The notes beneath the pieces were generated by a model that had not been told where the DNA came from, did no database searches, and was given only the letters and a program-made list of their open reading frames with translations. 64,000 bases of DNA, taken from positions 682,001-746,000 of the forward strand of contig DASXEW010000001.1 in the NCBI GenBank assembly GCA_036489885.1, given 5' to 3'. The first letter of the stretch is position 1; each line of letters starts with the position of its first letter. Origin of the DNA: Candidatus Baltobacteraceae bacterium. GTDB taxonomy: Bacteria > Vulcanimicrobiota > Vulcanimicrobiia > Vulcanimicrobiales > Vulcanimicrobiaceae. A program made the translations under genes and the position numbers. This document shows positions 33,484-47,038 of this stretch, piece after piece.

Positions 33484-35007
33484 ACGGAGCGCGAGCCGGA
33501 CCGTCGTGCCGTCTTCGGTTCGCTCCAATTGAACCTCGTCGCTCAGCGCGTACATCAGCGTCAAGCCTCGCCCGCGATCGGCGAGTATGTCGAATCCGGG
33601 AGGCGGCTCGAGCTTCGGCAACCACATTCCCTGATCGCTGATCTCGACCGTTATCGAGTTTGTACGGCGACGCGCACGGAGGAAGAACTCTTCGCTTCCG
33701 AGCGCTCCGGCGTGCTCGATCGCATTGTTCACGGCTTCGCCGACGGCGACTTGCAGATCGAAGCGCCGTTCTTCGTCGATGCCCGCCTCGCTGACGACGC
33801 GGTTGATGATATGCCGCGCGCGGCGCGCCGAAGCCGGCGTCGCCGGCAAACTCACTTCGATCTCGCGCAGCGGAGCTTGCGCGGTTGAGACCGTGAGGAG
33901 CGCGATGTCGTCACGTTGACGTCCGATGATCGTGCTTGCGACGAGCGAGAGTGCCGAGCGTTGCTGCGTCCCGCGCGCTTGTCGTGAGAGCGCAGCTTTC
34001 ATGCGTTCTTCCGCGGCTTCGAGCTCGCGATCTGATTCGATGAGACCGTCCGTATAGAACACAAGAATCGATCCGGGCGAAAGTGCGACGCTACGCGTCT
34101 CCCATCCGGGTACGGTACTGCCCGGCATGCCGAGTCCGAGCGGGATGCCGATGCCTTCGAGCGTGCGGATCGTCCCGTCAGACGATGCGAGGAACGGCGG
34201 CGGATGTCCGGCCGAGGCGTAGCTCAAGCGCAGTGTGTAACGATCCAAGATCGCGAACATCGCAGTGACCATCGTCTTGTTGTCGGAAAGCTCGACGGCC
34301 GCATTGGCAATGTGCAACACGCGCGCAGGTTCGAGCTCGTCGATCGCAGCCGAGCGCAGCGCTTCGCGAACACGCCCCATCAGAACCGCGGCCTCGAGTC
34401 CGTGGCCGCCGACGTCGCCGATCGAGAACGCGATGCGGCCGTCGCCGAGATCGAACGCGTCATACCAATCACCACCGACATTGGCTTCGTTGGTGTCCGG
34501 TTGATAAACCGCATCGAGCGTCAAACCCGGGACGTGTGGAAGCATGGGCGGAAGAAGCGCGCGTTGCAGCGTGTCGGCAATTCGGCGTTCGCGCTGATAA
34601 AGCTCTGCATAGGCTTCCTCGCTGCGCTTTTGATGATCGATGTCGGTGCACGTCCCGAACCAGCGCGCGATACGGCCCTGCTTGTCGCGGACAGGATTGG
34701 CGCGCGTCAAAAACCATCGGTACTCGCCGTCGCCCCGCCGGAAGCGAAGCTCCGCTTCGAAAGCGCTCCCCAGTAAGATCGCGGTTCGCCAGTTGTGAAG
34801 CGTGCTGGTGAAATCATCGGGATGAACGGCGCGAAGCCATCCTTCGGCGAGCGATTGCTCGCGATCCATACCGCTATAGTCGTACCAGCGCTGATTGAAA
34901 AAAATCGCGTAGCCGTTCGGACGCGTTGCCCAGACGATCGTGGGCAGTGCTTCCGCGATCTGCCGCCACTCCGGAAGGTGCGGGGCGCCGCTTATGTTCG
35001 CTGGCAT
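33472..35007 (-). CDS. PAS-SpoIIE phosphatase-RsbW-type kinase fusion
   Basis: A single 511-residue polypeptide combines three parts. First is a PAS/PAC sensor (about residues 10-130; AIFFNQRWYDYSGM and RWFLTRANPVRDKQGRIARW). Second is a SpoIIE/PP2C phosphatase (about 155-365; NVGGDWYDAFDLGDG, GDVGGHGLEAAVLMG). Third is a GHKL anti-sigma-type ATPase (about 385-510; N box GEAVNNAIEHA, G1 SDQGMW, G2 DRGRGLTLMYAL). Opposing phosphatase and kinase activities for an STAS switch protein are thus joined. It has no membrane segment, so it senses a cytoplasmic ligand or redox state. It overlaps the epimerase gene by 16 bases and is the last gene of the long catabolic block, which suggests a sensory role tied to that pathway. 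Confidence 0.93.
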   Translation of the reverse strand: MPANISGAPHLPEWRQIAEALPTIVWATRPNGYAIFFNQRWYDYSGMDREQSLAEGWLRAVHPDDFTSTLHNWRTAILLGSAFEAELRFRRGDGEYRWFLTRANPVRDKQGRIARWFGTCTDIDHQKRSEEAYAELYQRERRIADTLQRALLPPMLPHVPGLTLDAVYQPDTNEANVGGDWYDAFDLGDGRIAFSIGDVGGHGLEAAVLMGRVREALRSAAIDELEPARVLHIANAAVELSDNKTMVTAMFAILDRYTLRLSYASAGHPPPFLASSDGTIRTLEGIGIPLGLGMPGSTVPGWETRSVALSPGSILVFYTDGLIESDRELEAAEERMKAALSRQARGTQQRSALSLVASTIIGRQRDDIALLTVSTAQAPLREIEVSLPATPASARRARHIINRVVSEAGIDEERRFDLQVAVGEAVNNAIEHAGALGSEEFFLRARRRTNSITVEISDQGMWLPKLEPPPGFDILADRGRGLTLMYALSDEVQLERTEDGTTVRLALRLAA

Positions 35008-35396
35008 AACTCGATCAAGACCCCGCCGGTCGACTTTGGATGCAGGAAAGCAATGAGATTTCCGTGTGCACCTTTGCGCGGCGTGGGATCGATCAGCTGG
35101 ATTCCGGCGCCGAGAAGGCGCGACAATTCAGCCGGTAAATCCGGAACGCGATACGCAATGTGATGCAGTTTCGTCGGCGCATCTCCTCGATAACGTGCGA
35201 TTGCGGAGCTCGGGTCGAGGGGACGCAGTAGCTCGATGACCGCCTCTCCGGCGCGCAAGCCGACCGCCTCGACGCCCTGATCCGCAATTACTTCGCGATA
35301 AACTTGTTCGAATCCCAAAACATCGATGTAAAGCTTTAGCGTAGCGTCGAGATCTGCGACGACGATTGCCACGTGATCGATTGGATACGAATTCAC
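34992..35396 (-). CDS. mce: Methylmalonyl-CoA epimerase
   Basis: This vicinal-oxygen-chelate-fold metalloenzyme interconverts (S)- and (R)-methylmalonyl-CoA. The 134-residue protein has the metal-binding His in [12 protein letters not shown], the mid-chain LHHIAYRV His and the C-terminal Glu in GGVLIELCQ. The loop with [12 protein letters not shown] is the family signature. The GTG start overlaps the mutase stop (GTGA). The position between the mutase and carboxylase fits the propionyl-CoA to succinyl-CoA route. Confidence 0.94.
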
Positions 35397-36967
35397 GCAA
35401 CGACCTCGCCGGCTGTATACCGGCCGAAGACCGCGCGTAACACACTCGAAATCTCGCCGACCGTCGCGCCCGCATCCAACGCCTCGACAAACGTCGGCAT
35501 CAAATTCGCTTTCCCTTGCGCGGCGGCGCGAACGTCGGCAAGTCGCGCCTCGACACGAGCCGCATCGCGCTCCGCACGATAGCGGCGGACGTTTTCGATC
35601 TGGTCGCGCTCGAGCGATGCGTCGACGCGATGTAAGCGTACAGGCACGCCGTCGCTTGAATCGGTGAATGCGTTGACGCCAACGACGACTTGCTTGCCCT
35701 CTTCAATTGCAATTTGCGCGCGATAGGCCGAGTCTGCAATGCGCGCCTGCATCCAACCCCTCTCGATCGCGCTGACACTACCGCCTTCGCAATCGACCTC
35801 CGTAATAAGCTCCCTTGCTCGCTCGAAAATCTCACTCGTTAATGCTTCCACGTAATACGAGCCGGCAATCGGATCGACCACGTCGGCGGCGCCGCTTTCG
35901 AAAGCGATGATCTGTTGCGTGCGCAGCGCGGTTCGAACCGACTGTTCGGTCGGTAGGGCAAGCGCTTCGTCTTTAGCATTGGTGTGGAGCGATTGGGTCC
36001 CGCCGAGAACTGCAGCGAGCGCCTGAATGGTGACGCGAACGATGTTGTTCTCAGGCTCTTGTGCGGTGAGTGTCGACCCGCCGGTTTGCGTGTGAAAGCG
36101 TAGCATCTGCGAGCGAGCGTCGCTCGAGCCGAACTCATCGCGGACGATAGTGGCCCAAAGCTGCCGGGCTGCCCGGAACTTTGCAATCTCCTCGAAGAAG
36201 TCGTTATGCGCGTTCCAGAAGAAAGAGATGCGCGGCGCAACGTCTTCGACACGCAAGCCGCTCTCGAGCGCTGCCCGCAAATACGCTTTGGCGTTCGAAA
36301 GAGTGAATGCGACTTCTTCGACTGCGGTCGAACCGGCTTCGCGGATGTGGTAGCCCGAGATCGAGATCGTGTTCCACTGCGGAACCTCGCGCGCGCAGTA
36401 TGCCATTACATCCGTGACCAAACGCATCGAAGGCCGCGGCGGAAACATGTAGGTGCCGCGTGCGGCGTACTCTTTGAGCACGTCATTTTGGACGGTGCCA
36501 CCCAGCTTTGCGAACGGTATTCCGCGGCGGCGCGCAACGACCAGATACGTTGCCAAGATGATCGACGCCGGCGCATTGATCGTCATCGAAACGGTGACGT
36601 TGTCGAGCGGGATGTCCGCAAAGAGGCGTTCGGTGTCTTGGACCGCGTCGATCGCGACGCCGACTTTACCGACCTCTCCGCGGGCTTCAGGCGCGTCCGA
36701 ATCGTAGCCGAGCTGCGTCGGAAGATCGAACGCTACCGAAAGACCGGTGGTGCCTTGCGAAAGCAGATAAAGATAGCGCGCGTTTGATTCCGCGGCGGTG
36801 CCGAATCCGGCGTATTGCCGCATCGTCCAAAGACGGCCGCGGTACATATCGGAGCGGATCCCGCGTGTGAACGGAAACGCCCCCGGCGCTGCGGCTTCGG
36901 GTGGCGCGTCGCTTGCATCGTACACCGGTTCGAGGGGGATGCCGCTGGCGTTGGATTCGCGTGCCAT
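35393..36967 (-). CDS. Methylmalonyl-CoA mutase large (substrate-binding) subunit
   Basis: This is the TIM-barrel subunit of a coenzyme B12-dependent acyl-CoA mutase. The 524-residue protein covers only the catalytic barrel and lacks the C-terminal B12-binding domain, as in archaeal-type two-subunit mutases; the small B12 subunit is not in this window. Key stretches are [20 protein letters not shown] with the Tyr diagnostic of methylmalonyl-CoA, [24 protein letters not shown] and [11 protein letters not shown] with the active-site His. Isobutyryl-CoA mutases have Phe at the Tyr site, so methylmalonyl-CoA is favoured. It begins one base after the carboxylase stop. Confidence 0.95.
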
Positions 36968-36968
36968 A

Positions 36969-38711
36969 TTAATTGAAGGTTACCAGAACGGCGCCCGTTT
37001 CGACGGTTTGTCCGGCGCTGACCTTGACCTCTGCGACGGTCCCGGCGCGCGGCGAGCGGATCTCGTTCATCATCTTCATAGCCTCGATGACGGCCACGAG
37101 CGCGCCCGGCTCGACGGCGTCGTTCGGCTTGACCTTCATCTCGACGACGACGCCGTGCATCGGCGCGACGACCGCGTTTGCGCTCGAGGCCACTTTGCCG
37201 CTGCGGCTTTCGAGTTTCGGTGCGCGTCGCGGGGGCGCTGCGGCAGCCCCGCTTTGCGGACGGTCGAGCATGCGCACGCGAAAGAGCTTGCCGTTGACCT
37301 CGATACGAACGACGGAATCCTCGGTCGAAGCGGCTTCGCCGGCGGCGGCAGGTGCGGTCGCTTCGAGCTTGAGCGACGCCGCAAACGGTTCGAGCGTTGC
37401 CGTCCCGTACGTTGCGCTTTGAACCGATGGTTCATCGACGAGCGCGCGCAGGAGCGGGATCGTCGTCGCGACACCCTCGACCGTGAATTCGTCGAGCGCA
37501 CGACGCAAACGCGTGCGTGCTTCATCGCGCGTCGGCGCCCAAACGACGAGCTTTGCGATTAGTGAATCGTAATCGGGCGTGATCATCATCCCGCCAAAGG
37601 CAGCCGAGTCGACGCGCACGCCGGGGCCCCCGGGTTCACGGTATCGCACGATCGTCCCGGGCGCGGGCGCAAAGTTGTTGGCCGGATCCTCTGCGTTGAC
37701 GCGGACTTCGATCGAGTGACCGCGCAGCTCGATTGCGTCTTGTTTGTAGCCGAGGGGTTCGCCGGCCGCAACGCGGATTTGCTCGCGCACCAGATCGAGT
37801 CCCGAAATCATCTCGCTTACCGTATGCTCGACCTGAATGCGCGTGTTCATCTCGAGGAAGAAGAACTCATCGCCTGCGACGAGACATTCGATCGTACCAG
37901 CGCTGTCGTAACCGATTGTCTTTGCTGCGCGCAAGCCGGCTTCGCGCATTCCGCGGCGCACCCGTTCGCTGATCGTGGCCGGAGTTTCTTCCCAAACCTT
38001 TTGATGCCGGCGCTGCAGCGAGCAGTCGCGTTCGCCGACGTGGACGACGTTGCCGTGTTTGTCGGCGAGGACTTGCAGCTCGACGTGTTTCGGATTGTCG
38101 AGATAGCGCTCGGCGTAAATGGTCGAGTCTTTGAAGTAGGCCTCGGCCTCGCGCTTGGCGACGGCTAGCGCCGATTCAATTTCATCCTCAGAACGCGCGA
38201 CGCGTAAGCCTTTGCCACCGCCACCGGCCGCGGCCTTGAGCGCGAGCGGTAACCCGAACTCCTTGGCGGCGCGTTTCGCGTCGTCGAGATCTTTGATCGG
38301 ATCGAGTCTGCCGGGGACGACGGGAACGCCGGCTTTGACCATCGCGGTACGCGCGCGCAATTTGTCGCCCATCGCATCGATTGCGTCGGGATGAGGACCA
38401 ACCCATACGAGTCCGGCTGCAATGACGCTACGAGCAAAGTTCGCGTTCTCGGCGAAGAATCCGTAACCGGGATGCAGTGCATCGGCGCCGGCGCGCTTTG
38501 CGACGTCGAGAAGCTTCTCGGCGTTCAAGTAGCTTTGCGAGGGCGAGGAGCCGCCCAGCGCAAACGCTTCATCCGCGTAGCGCACGTGCAGCGCGTCGCG
38601 ATCCGGATCGCTGTAGACTGCAACCGTCGCGATGCCCATTTCTTTAGCCGTTCGCATCACGCGCAGTGCGATCTCGCCGCGGTTAGCGACTAGGAGCTTC
38701 GTAATCTTCAT
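36969..38711 (-). CDS. pccA: Acyl-CoA (propionyl-CoA) carboxylase, biotin carboxylase plus biotin carrier
   Basis: This subunit carboxylates its own biotin with ATP and bicarbonate. Residues about 1-450 form the ATP-grasp biotin carboxylase ([53 protein letters not shown]). A linker follows, and a C-terminal biotinyl domain with Lys546 in EAMKMMNE. The 580-residue length is shorter than proteobacterial PccA (about 670) and matches actinobacterial AccA. The carboxyltransferase partner is at 45524-47038 and a candidate epsilon subunit overlaps this gene's start by 29 bases. With the epimerase and mutase directly downstream, propionyl-CoA is the most likely substrate. Confidence 0.95.
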
Positions 38712-38844
38712 CGTATTGACGACCGCTCATTATCCATCGCGATTGAACGGCGGGCGTGGGCGGATCTTCCTCATCGTGCAGCGCGATCATGATCGCCGCG
38801 GCTTCGTCGTCGCTTGGCGCAGGCGTGATTTTGACTTCGCTCAA
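38683..38844 (-). CDS. Candidate acyl-CoA carboxylase epsilon subunit (53 residues)
   Basis: A 53-codon frame lies between the fabI-like gene and pccA. It starts with TTG overlapping the fabI stop (TTGA) and ends 29 bases inside pccA. The product has an acidic, helical N-terminal half (PSDDEAAAIMIALHDEED), a Pro-rich break (PPTPAVQ) and then [15 protein letters not shown]. The order of these elements matches what I know of the ACC-epsilon family (PF13822), small proteins that stabilise actinobacterial acyl-CoA carboxylases: an acidic helix, a Pro linker and a W/R-containing tail. The position directly beside a biotin carboxylase supports this. Absence of an ATG and Shine-Dalgarno, and lack of a profile search, limit confidence. 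Confidence 0.62.
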   Translation of the reverse strand: MSEVKITPAPSDDEAAAIMIALHDEEDPPTPAVQSRWIMSGRQYDEDYEAPSR

Positions 38845-39626
38845 GATTTTTGCTCGAGCGTCATCCCCATCGCGTGGTAGCCAGCATCGACGAAATGGAC
38901 GTCCGCGGTTACGGCTTTCGAGAGATCGCTCGCGAGATAGACGGCGGTGTTCCCGACGTCTTCGGCGGTGACGTTTCGATGCAACGGCGCAGCCGCGCCG
39001 ACCGCGTCGAGCATCGATGAGAAGCCTTTGACTTGCCGCGAGCTGGCCGTCTTGATCGGTCCGGCCGAGATTGCGTTGACGCGAATCCCGCGATCGCCGA
39101 GATCGTAGGCAAGGTATCGAACGATCGACTCGAGCGCGGCTTTGGCGATGCCCGCGATATTGTAATTCGGGACGATTGAGGTCGAGCCGTAATACGTAAG
39201 CGCCACGACGCTGGCGTTATCGTGCAGCGTCGTTCGCAACGCCCCTACGAGCGCGATCAACGAGTACGATGAGATGTCGAGAGCCAGCGAGAAACCCGCG
39301 CGCGACGTGTCGTAGACTTTTCCGGCGAGATCTTCTTTGTTTACGAAAGCGATCGAATGGACGAGGACGTCGAGTCCACCGAGCTCATGCTGCGCCGCAT
39401 CGGCAACGCGCCGCAGGTCATCGTCCGAGGTTACGTCGCAGGGCCAGCACGGGCCGCCACCCAGGTCGGCAGCCAGCTTGCGAACTTCGTCTTCAACGCG
39501 CTCACCCTGATAGATGAAGGATAGGCGTGCGCCGTGCTCGTGCAGCGCGCGCGCAATTCCCGTTGCGATCGACCAGCGGTTTGCGACGCCGGTGACGAGC
39601 GCAGTCTTCCCCTCTAAGAGCTTCAC
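38841..39626 (-). CDS. fabI: FabI-type enoyl-ACP/enoyl-thioester reductase
   Basis: This is an NAD(P)H-dependent short-chain dehydrogenase of the FabI type. The 261-residue protein has the nucleotide-binding GKTALVTGVANRWSIATGIA (the FabI-type GVAN..SIA loop). The catalytic Tyr155-x6-Lys162 lies in VPNYNIAGIAKAALE, and the substrate loop is RVNAISAGPIKTASS. GTG 39626 gives the normal N-terminus; a TTG at 39656 would overlap the upstream gene. Fatty-acid synthesis is the standard role. Inside a catabolic operon it could instead reduce a double bond in a CoA-thioester intermediate (inference). It is followed by the epsilon-like ORF by TTGA overlap. Confidence 0.93.
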   Translation of the reverse strand: MKLLEGKTALVTGVANRWSIATGIARALHEHGARLSFIYQGERVEDEVRKLAADLGGGPCWPCDVTSDDDLRRVADAAQHELGGLDVLVHSIAFVNKEDLAGKVYDTSRAGFSLALDISSYSLIALVGALRTTLHDNASVVALTYYGSTSIVPNYNIAGIAKAALESIVRYLAYDLGDRGIRVNAISAGPIKTASSRQVKGFSSMLDAVGAAAPLHRNVTAEDVGNTAVYLASDLSKAVTADVHFVDAGYHAMGMTLEQKS

Positions 39627-39634
39627 AGCGGCGT

Positions 39635-40327
39635 TTATTGCGAGGCGCCCGTCCAAAATCCCGTGGGATCGGCGGTTCGAATCGCTTCGAGCTCCCTGTC
39701 GTTCGGTTCGGGAGTCACCGTTGCACCCTGGAATTCCACGACAAATCCGGTCTCATCGATGACGTGTTCGCGTGTGACGCCGGGATGCAACGACAGGACG
39801 CGTGGTGGACCGGCATTCAACGCGAAGACGCCCAGCGTCGTGATCAGCGTAACCGCCCCTTTGGGGCGTGACGTAATGTAGGAAACGCGCTCGACGAAGC
39901 GCCGGCGCTCGTGCTCCATGATAAAGACGCAGCGCTGCGCGTGCGCCGCGATATCCGAGCCGCCGCCGGAGCCCGGAAGGCGTGTCGCTCCTACTTTCGT
40001 CGTGTTGAGATTTCCGAGCGCGTCAACTTCGGCACCGCCGAGGAATCCGACGTTCACGCGGCCGCGTTGCAACATCCCCATTACGTCGAGCAAACCGGTA
40101 GCGAACGTTGCGTCGCGTTGGTTCGGCCCGTCGCCCATAGTGACGACGGTTCCGCTTGCCGGGACTTCGCGGATCAAGCCGTTTTCGAATAGTCCTACGG
40201 CATTGGGAGCGTGCGTCGATTTTGCGACCGCAAAACCGACGAGCGGAAGGCGCATCCCAGCGAAGACGACGTCCCCGTCGTTGATCTGACGCGCCGCTGC
40301 GACGACCATCAGCGTTCGCGCGTTCAC
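39635..40327 (-). CDS. CoA-transferase family subunit B (GctB/IpdB-like)
   Basis: This is the beta subunit of a class I CoA-transferase-fold enzyme; 230 residues. It contains the Glu in GLFENGLI at the position of the catalytic glutamate of glutaconate CoA-transferase B, and Gly-rich GFLGGAEVDALGN and GSGGGSDIAAHAQR motifs. GTG 40327 overlaps the stop of subunit A (GTGA); a longer frame from 40390 would sit inside subunit A. Related IpdAB of steroid degraders is a ring-opening hydrolase rather than a transferase, so either chemistry is possible. Confidence 0.92.
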   Translation of the reverse strand: MNARTLMVVAAARQINDGDVVFAGMRLPLVGFAVAKSTHAPNAVGLFENGLIREVPASGTVVTMGDGPNQRDATFATGLLDVMGMLQRGRVNVGFLGGAEVDALGNLNTTKVGATRLPGSGGGSDIAAHAQRCVFIMEHERRRFVERVSYITSRPKGAVTLITTLGVFALNAGPPRVLSLHPGVTREHVIDETGFVVEFQGATVTPEPNDRELEAIRTADPTGFWTGASQ

Positions 40328-41172
40328 GCGCGCAGCTTCTGCATGTAGGCCGCGCGATCGAAGAGATTTTCGATCCATTCTCCCCGCCATGCATCGAAGC
40401 CGTCGCGTGTTCGCGTCGCACGGTGATACGTTTCGAAGGCTGCGTGATCGCGCTCGCGGTAGCCTTCGACCGGCGACGGATGCGCGGCTCCTGGTTCGAG
40501 AACGACCGCATCCACGAGCAATCCGGGAATCAGCGTACGGTTGGGCTCCCTTCGGATGACTTCGGGCTCAGCAAGTTCTTCCGTCAACACGATCACGCGG
40601 TCGGCGGCGCGTACGCTCTCGACGGTCGTCCCGAGATTTCCCCAAACATGCGCGTTCCCGTGCGCGTCGGCGCGTTGCACGACGACGATTGCGACGTCGA
40701 CCTTGATCGCGCGCACCGCATAAATACGTTCGCCGCCGAACGGATCGTCGATCTCGCGAAACGCGTCGCGCTGCGAGGCGATGTCGGTGCCGAAGAGCGA
40801 GTGTGTGATGCCGAAGGGAACGCCCTCAGCCGCCGCGCGCAAACCGGTTGCGTAAGTCAGATTCGTGTAGTCGGTGATCGTGATCTGCGAAGGACTAGCT
40901 TCGGCGGCTCGCCGGAAATTGTGTCCCAAACCCGCGCCGACGTTCCCGACCCAGGCGACCTCGAGGGCCTGCACGCAACCTGCGCCGATCAGCTGATCGT
41001 AGAGCATGTCGCTAATCGGTCCAACCAGCGTGAGATCGTGCTTGCGCTGACGAATGATCTCGTGCCCGGCGGAGAACGGAATCCGCGCTTCGAGGCCACA
41101 GGCAGCGCTGACGCGATCGCCGTCGCGTACCAAACGCGCAACAGCATCGGCGGTTGTTGTGAGCTTGCTCAA
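40324..41172 (-). CDS. CoA-transferase family subunit A (GctA/IpdA-like)
   Basis: This is the alpha subunit partnering the preceding entry; 282 residues. Family features are the N-terminal GDRVSAACGLEARIPF, a central YATGLRAAAEGVPFGITHSL region, DVAIVVVQRADAHGNAHVWG and the C-terminal VDAVVLEPGAAHPSPVEGY followed by an RDH. It starts with TTG overlapping the ligase stop (TTGA). In the operon it would transfer CoA to an acid or hydrolytically open a CoA-bound ring product. The IpdA-like C-terminal half fits either; no residue that I can see decides. Confidence 0.92.
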   Translation of the reverse strand: MSKLTTTADAVARLVRDGDRVSAACGLEARIPFSAGHEIIRQRKHDLTLVGPISDMLYDQLIGAGCVQALEVAWVGNVGAGLGHNFRRAAEASPSQITITDYTNLTYATGLRAAAEGVPFGITHSLFGTDIASQRDAFREIDDPFGGERIYAVRAIKVDVAIVVVQRADAHGNAHVWGNLGTTVESVRAADRVIVLTEELAEPEVIRREPNRTLIPGLLVDAVVLEPGAAHPSPVEGYRERDHAAFETYHRATRTRDGFDAWRGEWIENLFDRAAYMQKLRA

Positions 41173-42641
41173 ACCTCAGTCTTTGTTTCGCGCAGGACGA
41201 AGCGCTGAGTCTTCCCCGTCGCGGTCTTCGGCAGCGAATTGACGACGGTTACCCAGCGAGGGTATTTGTGCGGCGTCAGGCGCTCTTTCACAAAGGCTTG
41301 CAGCTCGGTTTCGAGATCGCTGGTTTGAAGAGTCGCGGCGCGTAACACGACATACGCGTGCGGCTTGACGAGTCCGTCATCGTCTTCGCGTCCAACGACC
41401 GCGCATTCGAGAACGGCGTCGTGCTCCGCGATGACGTTTTCGACCTCAACCGGCGAGACCCACATTCCGCTGACCTTGAGCATGTCGTCGCTGCGGCCGG
41501 CGTGCCAGTAGACGCCCTGACTGTCACGGCGGTATTTGTCGCCGGTTCGAATCCAATCGCCGAATAACGTCGCTTTGGTTCGCTCGTGCTTGTTCCAGTA
41601 GAAAGCCATCGTCGAATCGCCGCGTACCAGCAGATCGCCGATCTCGTCGTCGGCGCAATCGTCGTCGTTTTCGTCGACGATCCGCACCTCGTAGCCGGGA
41701 ACGGTGCGTCCGCTAGCGCCGGGCGTTGCCGCGCCGGGCATGTTGGCCATAAACATGTGCGTGATCTCGGTCGTGCCGATGCCGTCGCAAATCTCTAGCC
41801 CCATTTGCGCCTGCCAGCGATTGAAAAGTGCGGGTGGCAGCGCTTCGCCGGCGCTGACGCAGACGCGAACGCTCGAGAAATCGGCTTTGGCGCCTTCGTC
41901 GATGGCTGCGAGCATTTGCGCGTAGGCGGTCGGCACCGCGAAAAACAGCGTCGGCTTGTGACGGCGGACTTGATCGAAGACGGCTTGCGGAGTCGGACGC
42001 TCGGGGAAGAGAATCGCGGCGGCTCCGACGTCCATCGGATAGTACTGCGCGTTGCCGAGACCGTACGCGAAGAACAGTTTTGCCACGCTGAAGGCGCGAT
42101 CCGAAGTGCGCGTGCACAGCACTTGCTCGCCGTACGTGCGCGCGCAAACCCACATGTCGTGCTGCAAATGCACGACGCCTTTCGGTTCGCCGGTCGTTCC
42201 GCTCGAATACAAGAAGAAGCAAAAGCCGTCGCGATGCGTCGGTGCATAATCGACCGGTGCGGCTTTGGAATCTTCGAGAACCCCAGCCGGTTCGTCGAGA
42301 ACGGCGAAGGGTGCACAATCACTCAGGATCATCTCGCGTTCGGCTTCGCGTAAGGAGGTGTTGAGCGGGACTGCAACGCCGCCAGCTGCGATCGTCCCCC
42401 AAAACGCGATCGACCAGGCCGGCGAATCGGGGAGGAAGATGACGACGCGCTCCCCGTTTCGCAAGCCGCGTTCGATCAAGCTGCCCGCGTAGCCGCGCAC
42501 CGCGCGATCGAGCTCCCGGTATGTCATGGTCGTTTGATCCGTGATCAGCGCGGGCGAATCGCCGCGTCCGAGTGCGACGTTGCGGCCGACGAAATACTGC
42601 GCGGCGTTGAAGCGCTCGGGAAGATGGTCGGCCGCGCGCAA
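41169..42641 (-). CDS. Benzoate-CoA ligase family acyl-CoA synthetase
   Basis: This AMP-forming ligase would activate an aromatic acid to its CoA thioester. The 490-residue protein has the family N-terminus LPERFNAAQYFVGRN typical of benzoate/4-hydroxybenzoate-CoA ligases. It also has the P-loop YSSGTTGEPKGVVH, the FFAYGLGN region, the DGIGTTEITH A5 motif, the RTGDKYRRDSQG hinge and a C-terminal Lys in PKTATGKTQRF. I place the start at TTG 42641, right after the enoyl-CoA hydratase stop; the longer frame from 42758 runs antisense-style through that gene's end. Benzoate itself, a substituted benzoate or another aromatic acid remain possible. Confidence 0.92.
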   Translation of the reverse strand: MRAADHLPERFNAAQYFVGRNVALGRGDSPALITDQTTMTYRELDRAVRGYAGSLIERGLRNGERVVIFLPDSPAWSIAFWGTIAAGGVAVPLNTSLREAEREMILSDCAPFAVLDEPAGVLEDSKAAPVDYAPTHRDGFCFFLYSSGTTGEPKGVVHLQHDMWVCARTYGEQVLCTRTSDRAFSVAKLFFAYGLGNAQYYPMDVGAAAILFPERPTPQAVFDQVRRHKPTLFFAVPTAYAQMLAAIDEGAKADFSSVRVCVSAGEALPPALFNRWQAQMGLEICDGIGTTEITHMFMANMPGAATPGASGRTVPGYEVRIVDENDDDCADDEIGDLLVRGDSTMAFYWNKHERTKATLFGDWIRTGDKYRRDSQGVYWHAGRSDDMLKVSGMWVSPVEVENVIAEHDAVLECAVVGREDDDGLVKPHAYVVLRAATLQTSDLETELQAFVKERLTPHKYPRWVTVVNSLPKTATGKTQRFVLRETKTEV

Positions 42642-42645
42642 AAGT

Positions 42646-43500
42646 CTAGCGGTTTTCGAAGCGTGCGACGCGCTGTTCGGTGAAGGCCGCGATCCCTTCG
42701 TGCGCATCATGGCTGCGGAAGAGAATCGATTGCAGCTCGCGTTCGAGCGCGAGCGCATCTTGCAGCGGCATCTCCGCGCCGGTTTGGATGCTGCGTTTCA
42801 CGAGACCGACCGCCATCGGGGCTTTGTTGGGCGAGCAAAATTGTCGCGCATACGTGAGGATTTGCTCCGCGAACGACGCTCCATCGCCTTCGTAAATCTC
42901 GTTGACGATGCCCATTTCCTCGGCCAGCTCGAAGCTGAACGTGCGCCCGGTCGCGATCAGCTCGATGGCTTTGGCCTTCCCGATGAGGCGCGCCAGACGC
43001 TGTGTTCCGCCGGTGCCGGGAAGCACGCCGAGACCGACTTCGGGCAGCCCGATCTTTCCGCCGTCACGGCGCGCGATCCGAATGTCACAGGCCATCGCGA
43101 TCTCGAGGCCGCCGCCGACTGCGTGTCCGTTAAGTGCGGCGATCACAAGCTTCGGTGTCTGCTCGAGGCGCGCCAGCGTCTCGTTGGCGTGCAAGCAGAA
43201 GTAATACTTGAATTGGGGCGTTACGGCGTTGAGCATACCGACGTTGGCGCCGGCCGAGAAGAAGCGTTCGCCTTTTCCGGTTAGGACGATCACCTCGACG
43301 CCGTCGTCGAAGCGCGCGTCGAGAATCGCTTCGTCGAGCTGCCGCATCATCTCGTGCGTGTAGGTGTTCGCCGGCGGATCATCCATCGTGATGATCGCGA
43401 CGTGTCCGTCTTTTGCGTAATGAATGACGCGTTTGCCGCTCTGCTCGTGGTGTTCGCGGCCGAATGGTGTCGGCTCGGCTTTCTTCGTATCGATCGCCAT
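42646..43500 (-). CDS. Enoyl-CoA hydratase/isomerase family protein
   Basis: This single crotonase-fold domain has 284 residues. It has the oxyanion-hole strands GERFFSAGANVGML and NGHAVGGGLEIAMACDIRIA, and the PEVGLGVLPGTGGTQRL motif with the catalytic Glu of hydratases. An N-terminal extension of about 25 residues is polar. A strong GAGGG ribosome-binding site overlaps the stop of the BoxB-like gene two bases upstream. It is not BoxC, which is about 550 residues long with two crotonase regions. It may hydrate the epoxidation product or an acyclic intermediate. Confidence 0.95.
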   Translation of the reverse strand: MAIDTKKAEPTPFGREHHEQSGKRVIHYAKDGHVAIITMDDPPANTYTHEMMRQLDEAILDARFDDGVEVIVLTGKGERFFSAGANVGMLNAVTPQFKYYFCLHANETLARLEQTPKLVIAALNGHAVGGGLEIAMACDIRIARRDGGKIGLPEVGLGVLPGTGGTQRLARLIGKAKAIELIATGRTFSFELAEEMGIVNEIYEGDGASFAEQILTYARQFCSPNKAPMAVGLVKRSIQTGAEMPLQDALALERELQSILFRSHDAHEGIAAFTEQRVARFENR

Positions 43501-43502
43501 TG

Positions 43503-44630
43503 CTATCCCTCGTTTGTCCGTCCCTTAGGTGCAATCCAATTCGGATTCTTGAACAATTCGGCCAAGCACGCTTCATCGTCGAGCGTCGGAAGGACGCTCG
43601 GTGCGTAAGCCGCCCATTCGTCGTCGCTCAGCCGTCGCCCGTCGACGCTCCAGTGGTCGCCCGCATGATCGCCGATCTTGCGATTGAAGCGCGCGTCGGG
43701 AACGTAAAGCTCTTCGACCGGATTGACGCTGTTGACCTGATCGACGGTCCTTCGTATCTCTTCGTAGAACCGGTCGCGCGCACGTTCGTTGAGCGCTTCG
43801 ACGTTGACGGGTTCCGTCGTTTTGCCCTCGTCATCGCGGCCTTTGATCCCCCACGCATAGGCCCATCGCGCCGAGCGCGAGTGATCGGTTCCAAACAGGT
43901 CGAGCGAACCCGATATCCATTTGTTGTAGTATTTCTGCTGCAACGCCACCGGGATCACGGCGGCTTGCACGATGCGCCGGAGTCCGGAGATACCGGTGCC
44001 CATGTGAAAAGATTCTTCACGCAGCATCGGAAGCATCGAACGTGAAAGCGGCGCGAACGCCGAGTGCGAGAGCATCGTCAGCTGAAACTTGCCGTCACGA
44101 TCCATGAAGTTCGTGTACGTGAAAAAGTCGAGCCAGTGGGTAACGTCTTCATTAAAGGCCCGCAGCAAGCGGTTCTTCTTACCAAAGGCTCGGCGCTCGA
44201 GCATTTTTTGCGCCTCGATCTTTCCGTCGGCTCCGAAATGCGTGATCAAGAGATGACACATTTGGAAACCGTGCCGCGTCTCTTCGAGCATAATCCTCGC
44301 GAGCGACGCAAGATCGTATTCGCTCGGTGCATTGTTCAAGAGAAACCGCTGCTGTTCGTTGGACGCAAACTCCGTGTCGCCCTGATAGATCACCATGTTG
44401 AGGATCGAATCGCGGATACGTTGATCGGGAACATCGAGCAGCCGTTCCCACTTCTTGTCCCCGGCGAAGGAGCCGAAGCTGATTTCGTCGCTCGGTAAGT
44501 CGCCGTATTTGGCCTCGAGCTTGTAGCCTGGGACGTAGCGGTCGATAAGGTCGAGATCCAGGCCGATCTCGGCTTGCCAATCCTTGAGCAGGTCGACCCA
44601 GTCGTCGAACGTCGAGATCCGCGCTGCCAC
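43503..44630 (-). CDS. BoxB-like diiron acyl-CoA ring epoxidase
   Basis: This ferritin-like diiron protein belongs with BoxB (benzoyl-CoA 2,3-epoxidase) and more distantly PaaA. Probable iron ligands are Glu87 (in GDTEFASNEQQ), Glu116/117 and His120 (EETRH), Glu161 (FNEDVTHW) and Glu205/206 with His209 (REESFH). The blocks THFGADGK, DRDGKFQL and SLDLFGTDHS are BoxB-like. At 375 residues it is roughly 100 shorter than the characterised BoxB. The shortening appears to lie at the N-terminus and in the insert after SLDLFG. GTG 44630 has an AAGG site. It is the first gene of an eleven-gene block, divergent from paaX. The reductase BoxA is not in the window, so the electron donor is unknown. Confidence 0.92.
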   Translation of the reverse strand: MAARISTFDDWVDLLKDWQAEIGLDLDLIDRYVPGYKLEAKYGDLPSDEISFGSFAGDKKWERLLDVPDQRIRDSILNMVIYQGDTEFASNEQQRFLLNNAPSEYDLASLARIMLEETRHGFQMCHLLITHFGADGKIEAQKMLERRAFGKKNRLLRAFNEDVTHWLDFFTYTNFMDRDGKFQLTMLSHSAFAPLSRSMLPMLREESFHMGTGISGLRRIVQAAVIPVALQQKYYNKWISGSLDLFGTDHSRSARWAYAWGIKGRDDEGKTTEPVNVEALNERARDRFYEEIRRTVDQVNSVNPVEELYVPDARFNRKIGDHAGDHWSVDGRRLSDDEWAAYAPSVLPTLDDEACLAELFKNPNWIAPKGRTNEG

Positions 44631-44696
44631 TGCCTTAAGCCCTCACTAGACGGTATTTGACACGGTCGTTAAATTATCGTCATATTAGGGAGAGCC
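44631..44696. promoter_or_regulatory. Divergent boxB-like/paaX promoter region with candidate PaaX operator
   Basis: The 66 bases separate two divergent starts. On the plus strand TTGACA (44657-44662) stands 18 bases before CATATT (44681-44686), a plausible promoter for paaX. The 13-base near-palindrome CGTTAAATTATCG (44667-44679; ten of twelve paired positions match) lies between these elements, a position where a bound repressor would block transcription. A GGGAGAG ribosome-binding site at about 44688-44694 precedes the paaX GTG. The AT-rich stretch contrasts with the GC-rich surroundings. Confidence 0.5.
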
Positions 44697-45527
44697 GTGG
44701 AGCCTGTCAAGGGAAACCGCCCCGTCACGCGTCCCAACTCGTTCATCTTCACGGTGTTCGGGGACTTCGTCCACGGCTACGGGGACGCGATCTGGGTTGG
44801 GAGCCTGGTGCGGCTGATGGCCGAGTTCGGGCTATCGGAACAAGCGGTCCGCGCCGCGCTCTCGCGGATGTCGCGCCAAGGTTGGCTGGAGAGTTCCCGT
44901 ATCGGGCCGCGGTCGTTCTATTCTCCGACGCCGCTTGGGAAGCGGCGGGTCGACGAGGTCAGCAAACGCATCTACGTGGCTCCGCAAGACGCGTGGGACG
45001 GCCGGTGGCGGATGCTCAGCTACACGATTCCGGAGTCGAAGCGCGAGCTTCGCGATCGCCTGCGCAAAGATCTCACCGTGCTTGGACTCGGGCCGCTCTC
45101 GGCGTCACTTTGGATTTCGCCGCGGGACGTTGCGGACGCCGTGCGCGATGCCATTCACGCGCTCGGACTCAATGAACGCGCAGACATGTTCGTTGCGCGT
45201 TACGAGGGGCCGCTCGCCGACGCGGACCTCGTGATCAAATGCTGGGACCTGGATGCGATCGGCCGCGCCTATGAGGAGTTCATTGCTCGCTACTCGGGCT
45301 ACGCGCGTTCGCTGAGCGACACGCAGGCGTTCGTCACACGTATTTGGCTCGTCCACGATTTTCGAAAATTCGCATATCTCGACCCAGGTTTGCCGGCCGC
45401 TCTTTTGCCTGCGGATTGGCCCGGGGTGCGTGCCGGCGCGCTGTTTCGCGAATTCTATGCGGCGCTACGTCCCGGCGCGGTGCGGTTCTTCGAGTCGGTG
45501 TTCAGCGCGCCAAACGAAGCGGCTTAG
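44697..45527 (+). CDS. PaaX-family transcriptional repressor
   Basis: PaaX proteins are winged-helix repressors released by an aryl-CoA thioester (phenylacetyl-CoA in E. coli). The 276-residue protein has the N-terminal HTH region with [20 protein letters not shown] and [19 protein letters not shown], and the middle [19 protein letters not shown]. The C-terminal domain contains [20 protein letters not shown] and LLPADWPG, all family features. It begins at a GTG with a strong ribosome-binding site, divergent from the BoxB-like operon. It most likely senses a CoA intermediate of that pathway. Its stop overlaps the convergent pccB gene by four bases. Confidence 0.94.
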
Positions 45528-47038
45528 AGCGGAATGTTGCCGTGCTTGCGGCGCGGACGCTCGACGCGTTTGTTTTGGAGCATCTCGAGCGAGGTCGAGA
45601 TAACGCGGCGCGTCTCTCGCGCTTCGATGACGTCGTCGATATAGCCACGCTGTGCCGCGACGAACGGGTTGGCGAAGCGCTTGCGATACTCTTCGATCAA
45701 CTCCGCGGTCTTCGCAACCGGGTCGGCCGCATCCGCAATCTCGCGCCGGAAAAGTATCTTGGCTGCACCCTCGGCGCCCATCACCGCAATCTCCGAGGTC
45801 GGCCACGCGACGTTGATGTCGGCGCGAATGTGTTTTGACGACATGACGTCGTATGCGCCGCCGTAGGCTTTGCGCGTGATGATCGTGATCTTGGGAACCG
45901 TGGCTTCGGCGAATGCGTAGAGCAGCTTGGCGCCGTGCGTGATGATGCCTCCGTATTCTTGTGCCGTGCCGGGTAAGAAGCCCGGAACGTCGACGAAGGT
46001 CACGAGCGGGATGTTGAATGCGTCGCAAAAACGCACGAATCGTGCAGCTTTGATCGAGCTCTCGATGTCGAGCACCCCGGCGAGCACTTCGGGCTGATTG
46101 GCGACGATCCCGATGGAGCGCCCCGCGACGCGTCCGAAACCGATGACGATGTTCCGCGCGTAGAACGGTAAGATCTCGAGAAACTCGCCGTCGTCAACGA
46201 CCGACTCGATCGCGCGCTTGATATCGTACGGCTTGTTGGGCGCATCCGGAACGAGATCGTCGAGCTCAGGGCACAAGCGGCGCGGGTCGTCGTCGCTCGC
46301 AAAGACGGGCGGATCATCAAGATTGTTCTGCGGCATAAACGAGAGCAGAGCGCGCGTTTGCGCGTTCATTTCATCTTCGTCGGCAGCCACGAGCTGCGCG
46401 ACGCCGCTCTTCGTCGCGTGTGTCATCGCCCCGCCGAGTTCTTCAAAGGTAACGTCTTCGCCCGTCACGGTCTTGATGATCTCCGGTCCCGTGATGAACA
46501 TCTGCGAGATCTCTTCGACCATGATCGTGAAGTCGGTAATCGCCGGTGAGTAGACGGCGCCGCCCGCGCACGGTCCCGCGATCAAGCTGATCTGCGGAAT
46601 GACGCCTGAAGCTTGCACGTTGCGCCAGAAAATCTCGGCGTACCCACCCAGGCTGACGACGCCCTCTTGAATGCGTGCACCGCCGGAATCGTTGATGCCG
46701 ATGACGGGGGAACCCGTACGTACGGCGAGATCCATGACCTTGCAGATTTTCTCGGCGAAGGCTTCACCGAGCGAGCCGCCGAGCACCGTGAAATCTTGCG
46801 AGAAGAGGAAAACTTGCCGGCCGTCGATCAGGGCACGCCCCGTTACGACGCCGTCGCCCAGAAATTCGCGTTCACCCAAACCGAACGCGGAGGTTCGGTG
46901 CACGACGAACGTGTCGAACTCGACGAACGAATCGGGATCGACCAGCGCGTCGATGCGTTCGCGCGCCGTGCGCTTACCGCGCGCGTGTTGACGCTCGACC
47001 GCCTCTTCACCAGCGGGCGCTTGCGCAAGTTCGCGCAT
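45524..47038 (-). CDS. pccB: Acyl-CoA (propionyl-CoA) carboxylase, carboxyltransferase subunit
   Basis: This subunit moves CO2 from carboxybiotin to an acyl-CoA. The 504-residue protein has the crotonase-like carboxyltransferase halves with [20 protein letters not shown] near the start, [31 protein letters not shown] and the second-half [20 protein letters not shown] and [13 protein letters not shown]. The open frame continues about 15 codons upstream of ATG 47038 with a plausible EQLLK sequence, so a CTG start is possible; that ATG has no clear ribosome-binding site. The biotin subunit lies 7 kb away in the opposite-side block. It converges on paaX. Confidence 0.95.

Follow-up and report, generated by a model that had tools for sequence, protein, structure and literature searches.

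Acyl-CoA carboxylases that depend on a small epsilon subunit have been described as an actinobacterial feature (PMC13118682). In Streptomyces, AccE, PccE and AccE2 are small subunits that work with an alpha subunit of the BC-BCCP type (biotin carboxylase plus biotin carrier) and a PccB-type beta subunit, and the activity of the epsilon-containing complex is strongly dependent on AccE2 (PMC13118682). In mycobacteria, AccE used as bait recovers AccA3, AccD4 and AccD5 (PMC4347857), and AccE5 appears in several complex structures (PDB 30hu, 9t97, 9tdm, 9yx1, 9yx2, 9yx4 and 9yx5), for which no open-access paper describing them was found. According to a proposal made in a 2011 study, alpha subunits that have no BT domain use AccE in its place (PMC3199775).

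In this report, we mainly consider a short open reading frame (ORF) in a 64,000-nucleotide stretch of DNA, hereafter the window, whose host is assigned to the Vulcanimicrobiota (Eremiobacterota), the latter being the name borne by the top-ranking relatives of its alpha gene. The ORF is read here, with a probability of about 0.86, as a genuine protein of the AccE/PccE family that most likely bridges an alpha subunit without a BT domain and a PccB-type beta subunit for acyl-CoA carboxylation. The host had been taken for a diderm organism in an earlier, sequence-only reading, and an Omp85 gene in its genome is consistent with a diderm envelope.

The epsilon locus and its probable partner subunits

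The features relevant to this reading are as follows.

34992-35396, minus strand: glyoxalase-fold protein (PF13669), probable methylmalonyl-CoA epimerase
35393-36967, minus strand: methylmalonyl-CoA mutase, large (catalytic) subunit, the next gene after alpha
36969-38711, minus strand: alpha subunit of 580 aa, with biotin carboxylase (residues 3-441) and biotinyl domain (residues 514-578) matched by Pfam
37260-37316, minus strand: alpha residues 466-484, hairpin-like element between BC and BCCP, proposed to be epsilon-linked
38683-38844, minus strand: proposed epsilon-subunit gene, 53 codons plus stop, with predicted helix, Pro-rich linker and SRW-x3-GR motif
38683-38711, minus strand: 29-base stretch shared by the epsilon 3' end and the alpha 5' end
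38841-38844, minus strand: TTGA overlap of the fabI-like stop with the epsilon start, 4 bases
38841-39656, minus strand: FabI-like enoyl-ACP reductase, immediately upstream of epsilon
45524-47038, minus strand: PccB/MmdA-type carboxyltransferase (beta) of 504 aa, likely partner (PF01039, E 2.5e-198)

The epsilon ORF starts with TTG at 38844-38842 and stops with TAA at 38685-38683, giving a product of 53 aa, and is framed by the end of the fabI-like gene at 38841 and the alpha ATG at 38711. The sequence-only reading had reported an in-frame ORF with a TTGA overlap to the fabI-like gene and a 29-base overlap into the biotin carboxylase gene; its coordinates agree with ours, to which the minus strand is added. 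In L036, the nearest relative, the overlap between epsilon and alpha amounts to 26 bases. Of 82 loci, duplicates counted, 63 have a start overlap with the fabI stop of the form NTGA (TTGA, ATGA or GTGA), and this recurrence among relatives backs the TTG start assigned to the window ORF. Scans around the ORF returned no promoter-like site and a single terminator-like site, which lies on the opposite strand and is at chance level.

Within alpha, no BT domain was matched by Pfam, and about 70 residues separate the BC and biotinyl domains. Linkage to both carboxylase genes is seen in the window, as epsilon overlaps alpha and the beta gene, in the same orientation, is found 7 kb upstream; in Streptomyces, by contrast, the epsilon genes are close to the beta genes. 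Downstream, the mutase gene encodes 524 aa that match the N-terminal catalytic domain only, and the B12-binding small subunit must be encoded elsewhere; the glyoxalase-fold protein is probably methylmalonyl-CoA epimerase, judging from its position. Beside the carboxylase genes, the interval 41169-45527 encodes a protein of the benzoate-CoA ligase family, scoring above cut-off, and a BoxB-like protein whose match is to part of the model and below cut-off. It also contains genes for a PaaX-like regulator (plus strand), for an enoyl-CoA hydratase and for two proteins resembling CoA-transferases, and these genes possibly form an aromatic-acid degradation cluster.

Conservation and family assignment of the short frame

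For comparison, 80 loci encoding alpha relatives were collected, and a homologous frame was recognised with a profile of the family between fabI and alpha in nearly every Eremiobacterota locus. A profile was required, since single-sequence searches of relatives with the window protein gave mostly sub-threshold matches. Among the good-quality genomes of the phylum, the family profile matches 52 of 85 (E up to 0.001), and the match lies immediately upstream of alpha in 40 of the 51 family genomes that have a full-length alpha orthologue; two further, diverged copies (in G041 and G085) were recognised by eye, and the remaining nine genomes are epsilon-less. Conservation of the ORF beside alpha, which the sequence-only reading had suggested as a check, is thereby borne out. 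The host genome itself contains one strong copy only, the one in the window. In G041 (loci L052 and L188), the alpha subunit keeps its hairpin and the epsilon frame is strongly diverged (PSDEEIAAIL...NPWLRAEF), so that the profile barely scores it; this frame is either decaying or affected by sequencing error.

Across an alignment of 39 homologues, W37 is the single invariant column, and E14, A17 and R42 are near-invariant. The Pro-rich linker and the segment SRWIMSGR, to which attention had already been drawn, are recovered as a linker followed by an SRW-x3-GR box. By alignment and model, the protein is short and acidic and comprises a helix of the form PT-x-[DE]E-x-AA, a linker and a Trp; in the AlphaFold2 model, a helix is predicted with confidence for residues 12-24 (pLDDT about 95 at residues 11-20), and a short helical turn is placed at the Trp box.

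The assignment to the ACC epsilon family (PF13822) emerges at the level of the family and not from the window sequence. Taken alone, the window protein has no Pfam match and leaves PF13822 unmatched up to E 10; a six-frame search of the host genome with PF13822 returned noise only, with the window ORF absent from the list, and an NCBIfam search matched no epsilon model. Among the 39 homologues, however, 27 match ACC_epsilon (E up to 1) and any other family is matched by at most one, whereas the same 39 sequences, when shuffled, yield no match to PF13822. Most of ten homologues scanned singly fall below the gathering threshold, and two of them, L036 and L040, are above it, with 25.5 and 28.8 bits, respectively, against a gathering score of 25. 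The HMM check thus succeeds for homologues and fails for the window protein itself. When the family profile was compared with all PDB chains, mycobacterial AccE5 was the sole significant match (E 8e-5), and the epsilon identity put forward by the sequence-only reading finds its support in this match and in the PF13822 result. Epsilon-like frames directly upstream of alpha were also observed in a Thermomicrobiota MAG (L085:675-893, 15.0 bits) and in Rubrobacter (L078:3785-3988, 18.0 bits), both below the PF13822 cut-off.

AccE5 shares the PT-x-E-E-x-AA helix motif followed by a linker and a Trp, but its chain has 94 residues, compared with 53 in the window epsilon, which ends soon after the Trp/Arg box. 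A second C-terminal Trp box, which canonical AccE has as AWRAS (L130 and L131), is absent from the window protein and present in L046, L049, L067 and the Rubrobacter frame. We do not take this box as defining, because L036 and L040 pass the PF13822 cut-off without it. As a separate observation, L046, L049, L067, L011 and L189 have a second SRWxxxGRL box at the epsilon C-terminus that recalls canonical actinobacterial AccE. On sequence grounds, the window epsilon is best regarded as a new and divergent member of a known family, one that is easy to overlook and that occurs in another phylum than those covered by the papers cited.

The BT domain of PCC/MCC alpha subunits, for which an equivalent role has been proposed (PMC3199775), resembles epsilon in having a W-R motif after a helix, but the two show no significant profile similarity: hhalign of the epsilon profile against 13 Eremiobacterota MCC-type alpha linker regions gave a probability of 2.3% over 7 columns. 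Homology to the BT domain was dropped on this result, and only a functional analogy is kept.

Epsilon-less relatives and alternative explanations

Nine genomes of genus g5, which belongs to the same family, were examined: fabI and alpha are adjacent in them, only a few tens of bases apart, and no epsilon was found. Also missing from the g5 alphas is the hairpin of roughly 20 residues which epsilon-bearing alphas, Rubrobacter included, have between BC and BCCP. When a tree was built from BC domains, the alphas lacking epsilon and hairpin grouped in a single clade (support 100/98) within the epsilon-bearing alphas, which implies a single event of co-loss; the beta gene is retained in all three epsilon-less genomes checked. 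One event is no proof of contact, but the co-loss points to the alpha hairpin as a site of epsilon action, and it lends support to the view that epsilon and hairpin may together act as a substitute for the BT domain.

Among other explanations, the ORF might be a translational-coupling leader or regulatory peptide for alpha that is conserved for its position, in keeping with its overlap with both neighbours and the conserved start overlap; this is improbable, however, as the invariant Trp and the helix motif common to AccE5 imply function at the protein level, and co-loss with an internal element of alpha is unexpected of a leader. It is less probable still that the ORF product belongs, as a small MmdE/OadG-like accessory subunit, to a methylmalonyl-CoA decarboxylase that pumps sodium and not to a carboxylase. 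The best NCBIfam match of beta is indeed TIGR01117 (mmdA), which scores well though below cut-off, and one homologue weakly matches OAD_gamma (E 0.13), but ACC_epsilon is matched by 27 homologues, the gene adjoining epsilon encodes an ATP-grasp biotin carboxylase fused to its carrier, and the 96% complete genome has no match to the OAD_beta membrane subunit (PF03977), whose absence led us to set this reading aside.

Whether the ORF is a gene at all depends on more than its openness: its frame is stop-free for 177 codons in the window, which by itself is weak evidence in such GC-rich DNA, and conservation is what exceeds chance. In 26 pairs of epsilon homologues, picked by nucleotide identity only, first, second and third codon positions show 0.16, 0.19 and 0.30 differences per site, respectively (p 1.5e-15), and the same pattern was obtained when pairs were conditioned on protein identity. 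In addition, dN is lower than dS in 21 of 23 homologue pairs, with many dS values close to saturation. An unconserved frame or missing coding constraint had been named beforehand as grounds for abandoning the gene; the frame proved conserved, and third positions show an excess of changes. The reading of the ORF as a frame left open by chance between two genes of GC-rich DNA, suggested by the commonness of such long frames in this DNA, the rare TTG start and the lack of a Pfam match by the window protein alone, is hardly credible and already refuted by the conservation of frame and motif across the phylum, the coding constraint, the conserved NTGA overlap and the clean absence in one genus in which both flanking genes close up. 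On this evidence, the window ORF is a real gene under coding constraint.

Proposed role and significance

In the proposed mechanism of the AccE/PccE-type subunit, epsilon would bridge alpha and the PccB-type beta, and the bridged complex would carboxylate propionyl-CoA or another acyl-CoA, with methylmalonyl-CoA as a product that could pass to the epimerase and mutase encoded next door. Docking onto the linker hairpin of alpha, onto beta or onto both may involve the conserved helix together with the Trp/Arg box, and the docked peptide would then stand in for the BT domain that is built into larger alpha subunits. Physical binding, bridging, substrate and the need of epsilon for activity are what we infer for this enzyme. 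The window data fit the BT-substitute proposal of 2011 (PMC3199775) and add the co-loss to it. Weighing against the epsilon reading are the PF13822-negative window protein, the sub-threshold scores of most homologues scanned singly, the absence of the second Trp box, the position of the gene beside alpha and not beta, and the restriction of the co-loss to one event.

A further idea, offered tentatively and at somewhat less than even odds, is that epsilon and the alpha linker hairpin constitute a split BT-like module, consisting of a free 53-residue peptide and a roughly 20-residue alpha element, both of which lineages can discard together; epsilon-dependence would then be an evolvable, removable trait reaching beyond Actinomycetota.

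With the window protein as an AccE/PccE-family member, the epsilon-dependent carboxylase type would reach a diderm phylum as well, and the Thermomicrobiota MAG and Rubrobacter have similar frames. Metabolic models of such uncultured bacteria that leave out epsilon would assume a two-subunit enzyme, and heterologous expression of the carboxylase without the epsilon peptide could fail. The epsilon-less genus provides a natural comparison that could reveal what epsilon does and where it binds, and the co-loss makes the mechanism of epsilon testable.
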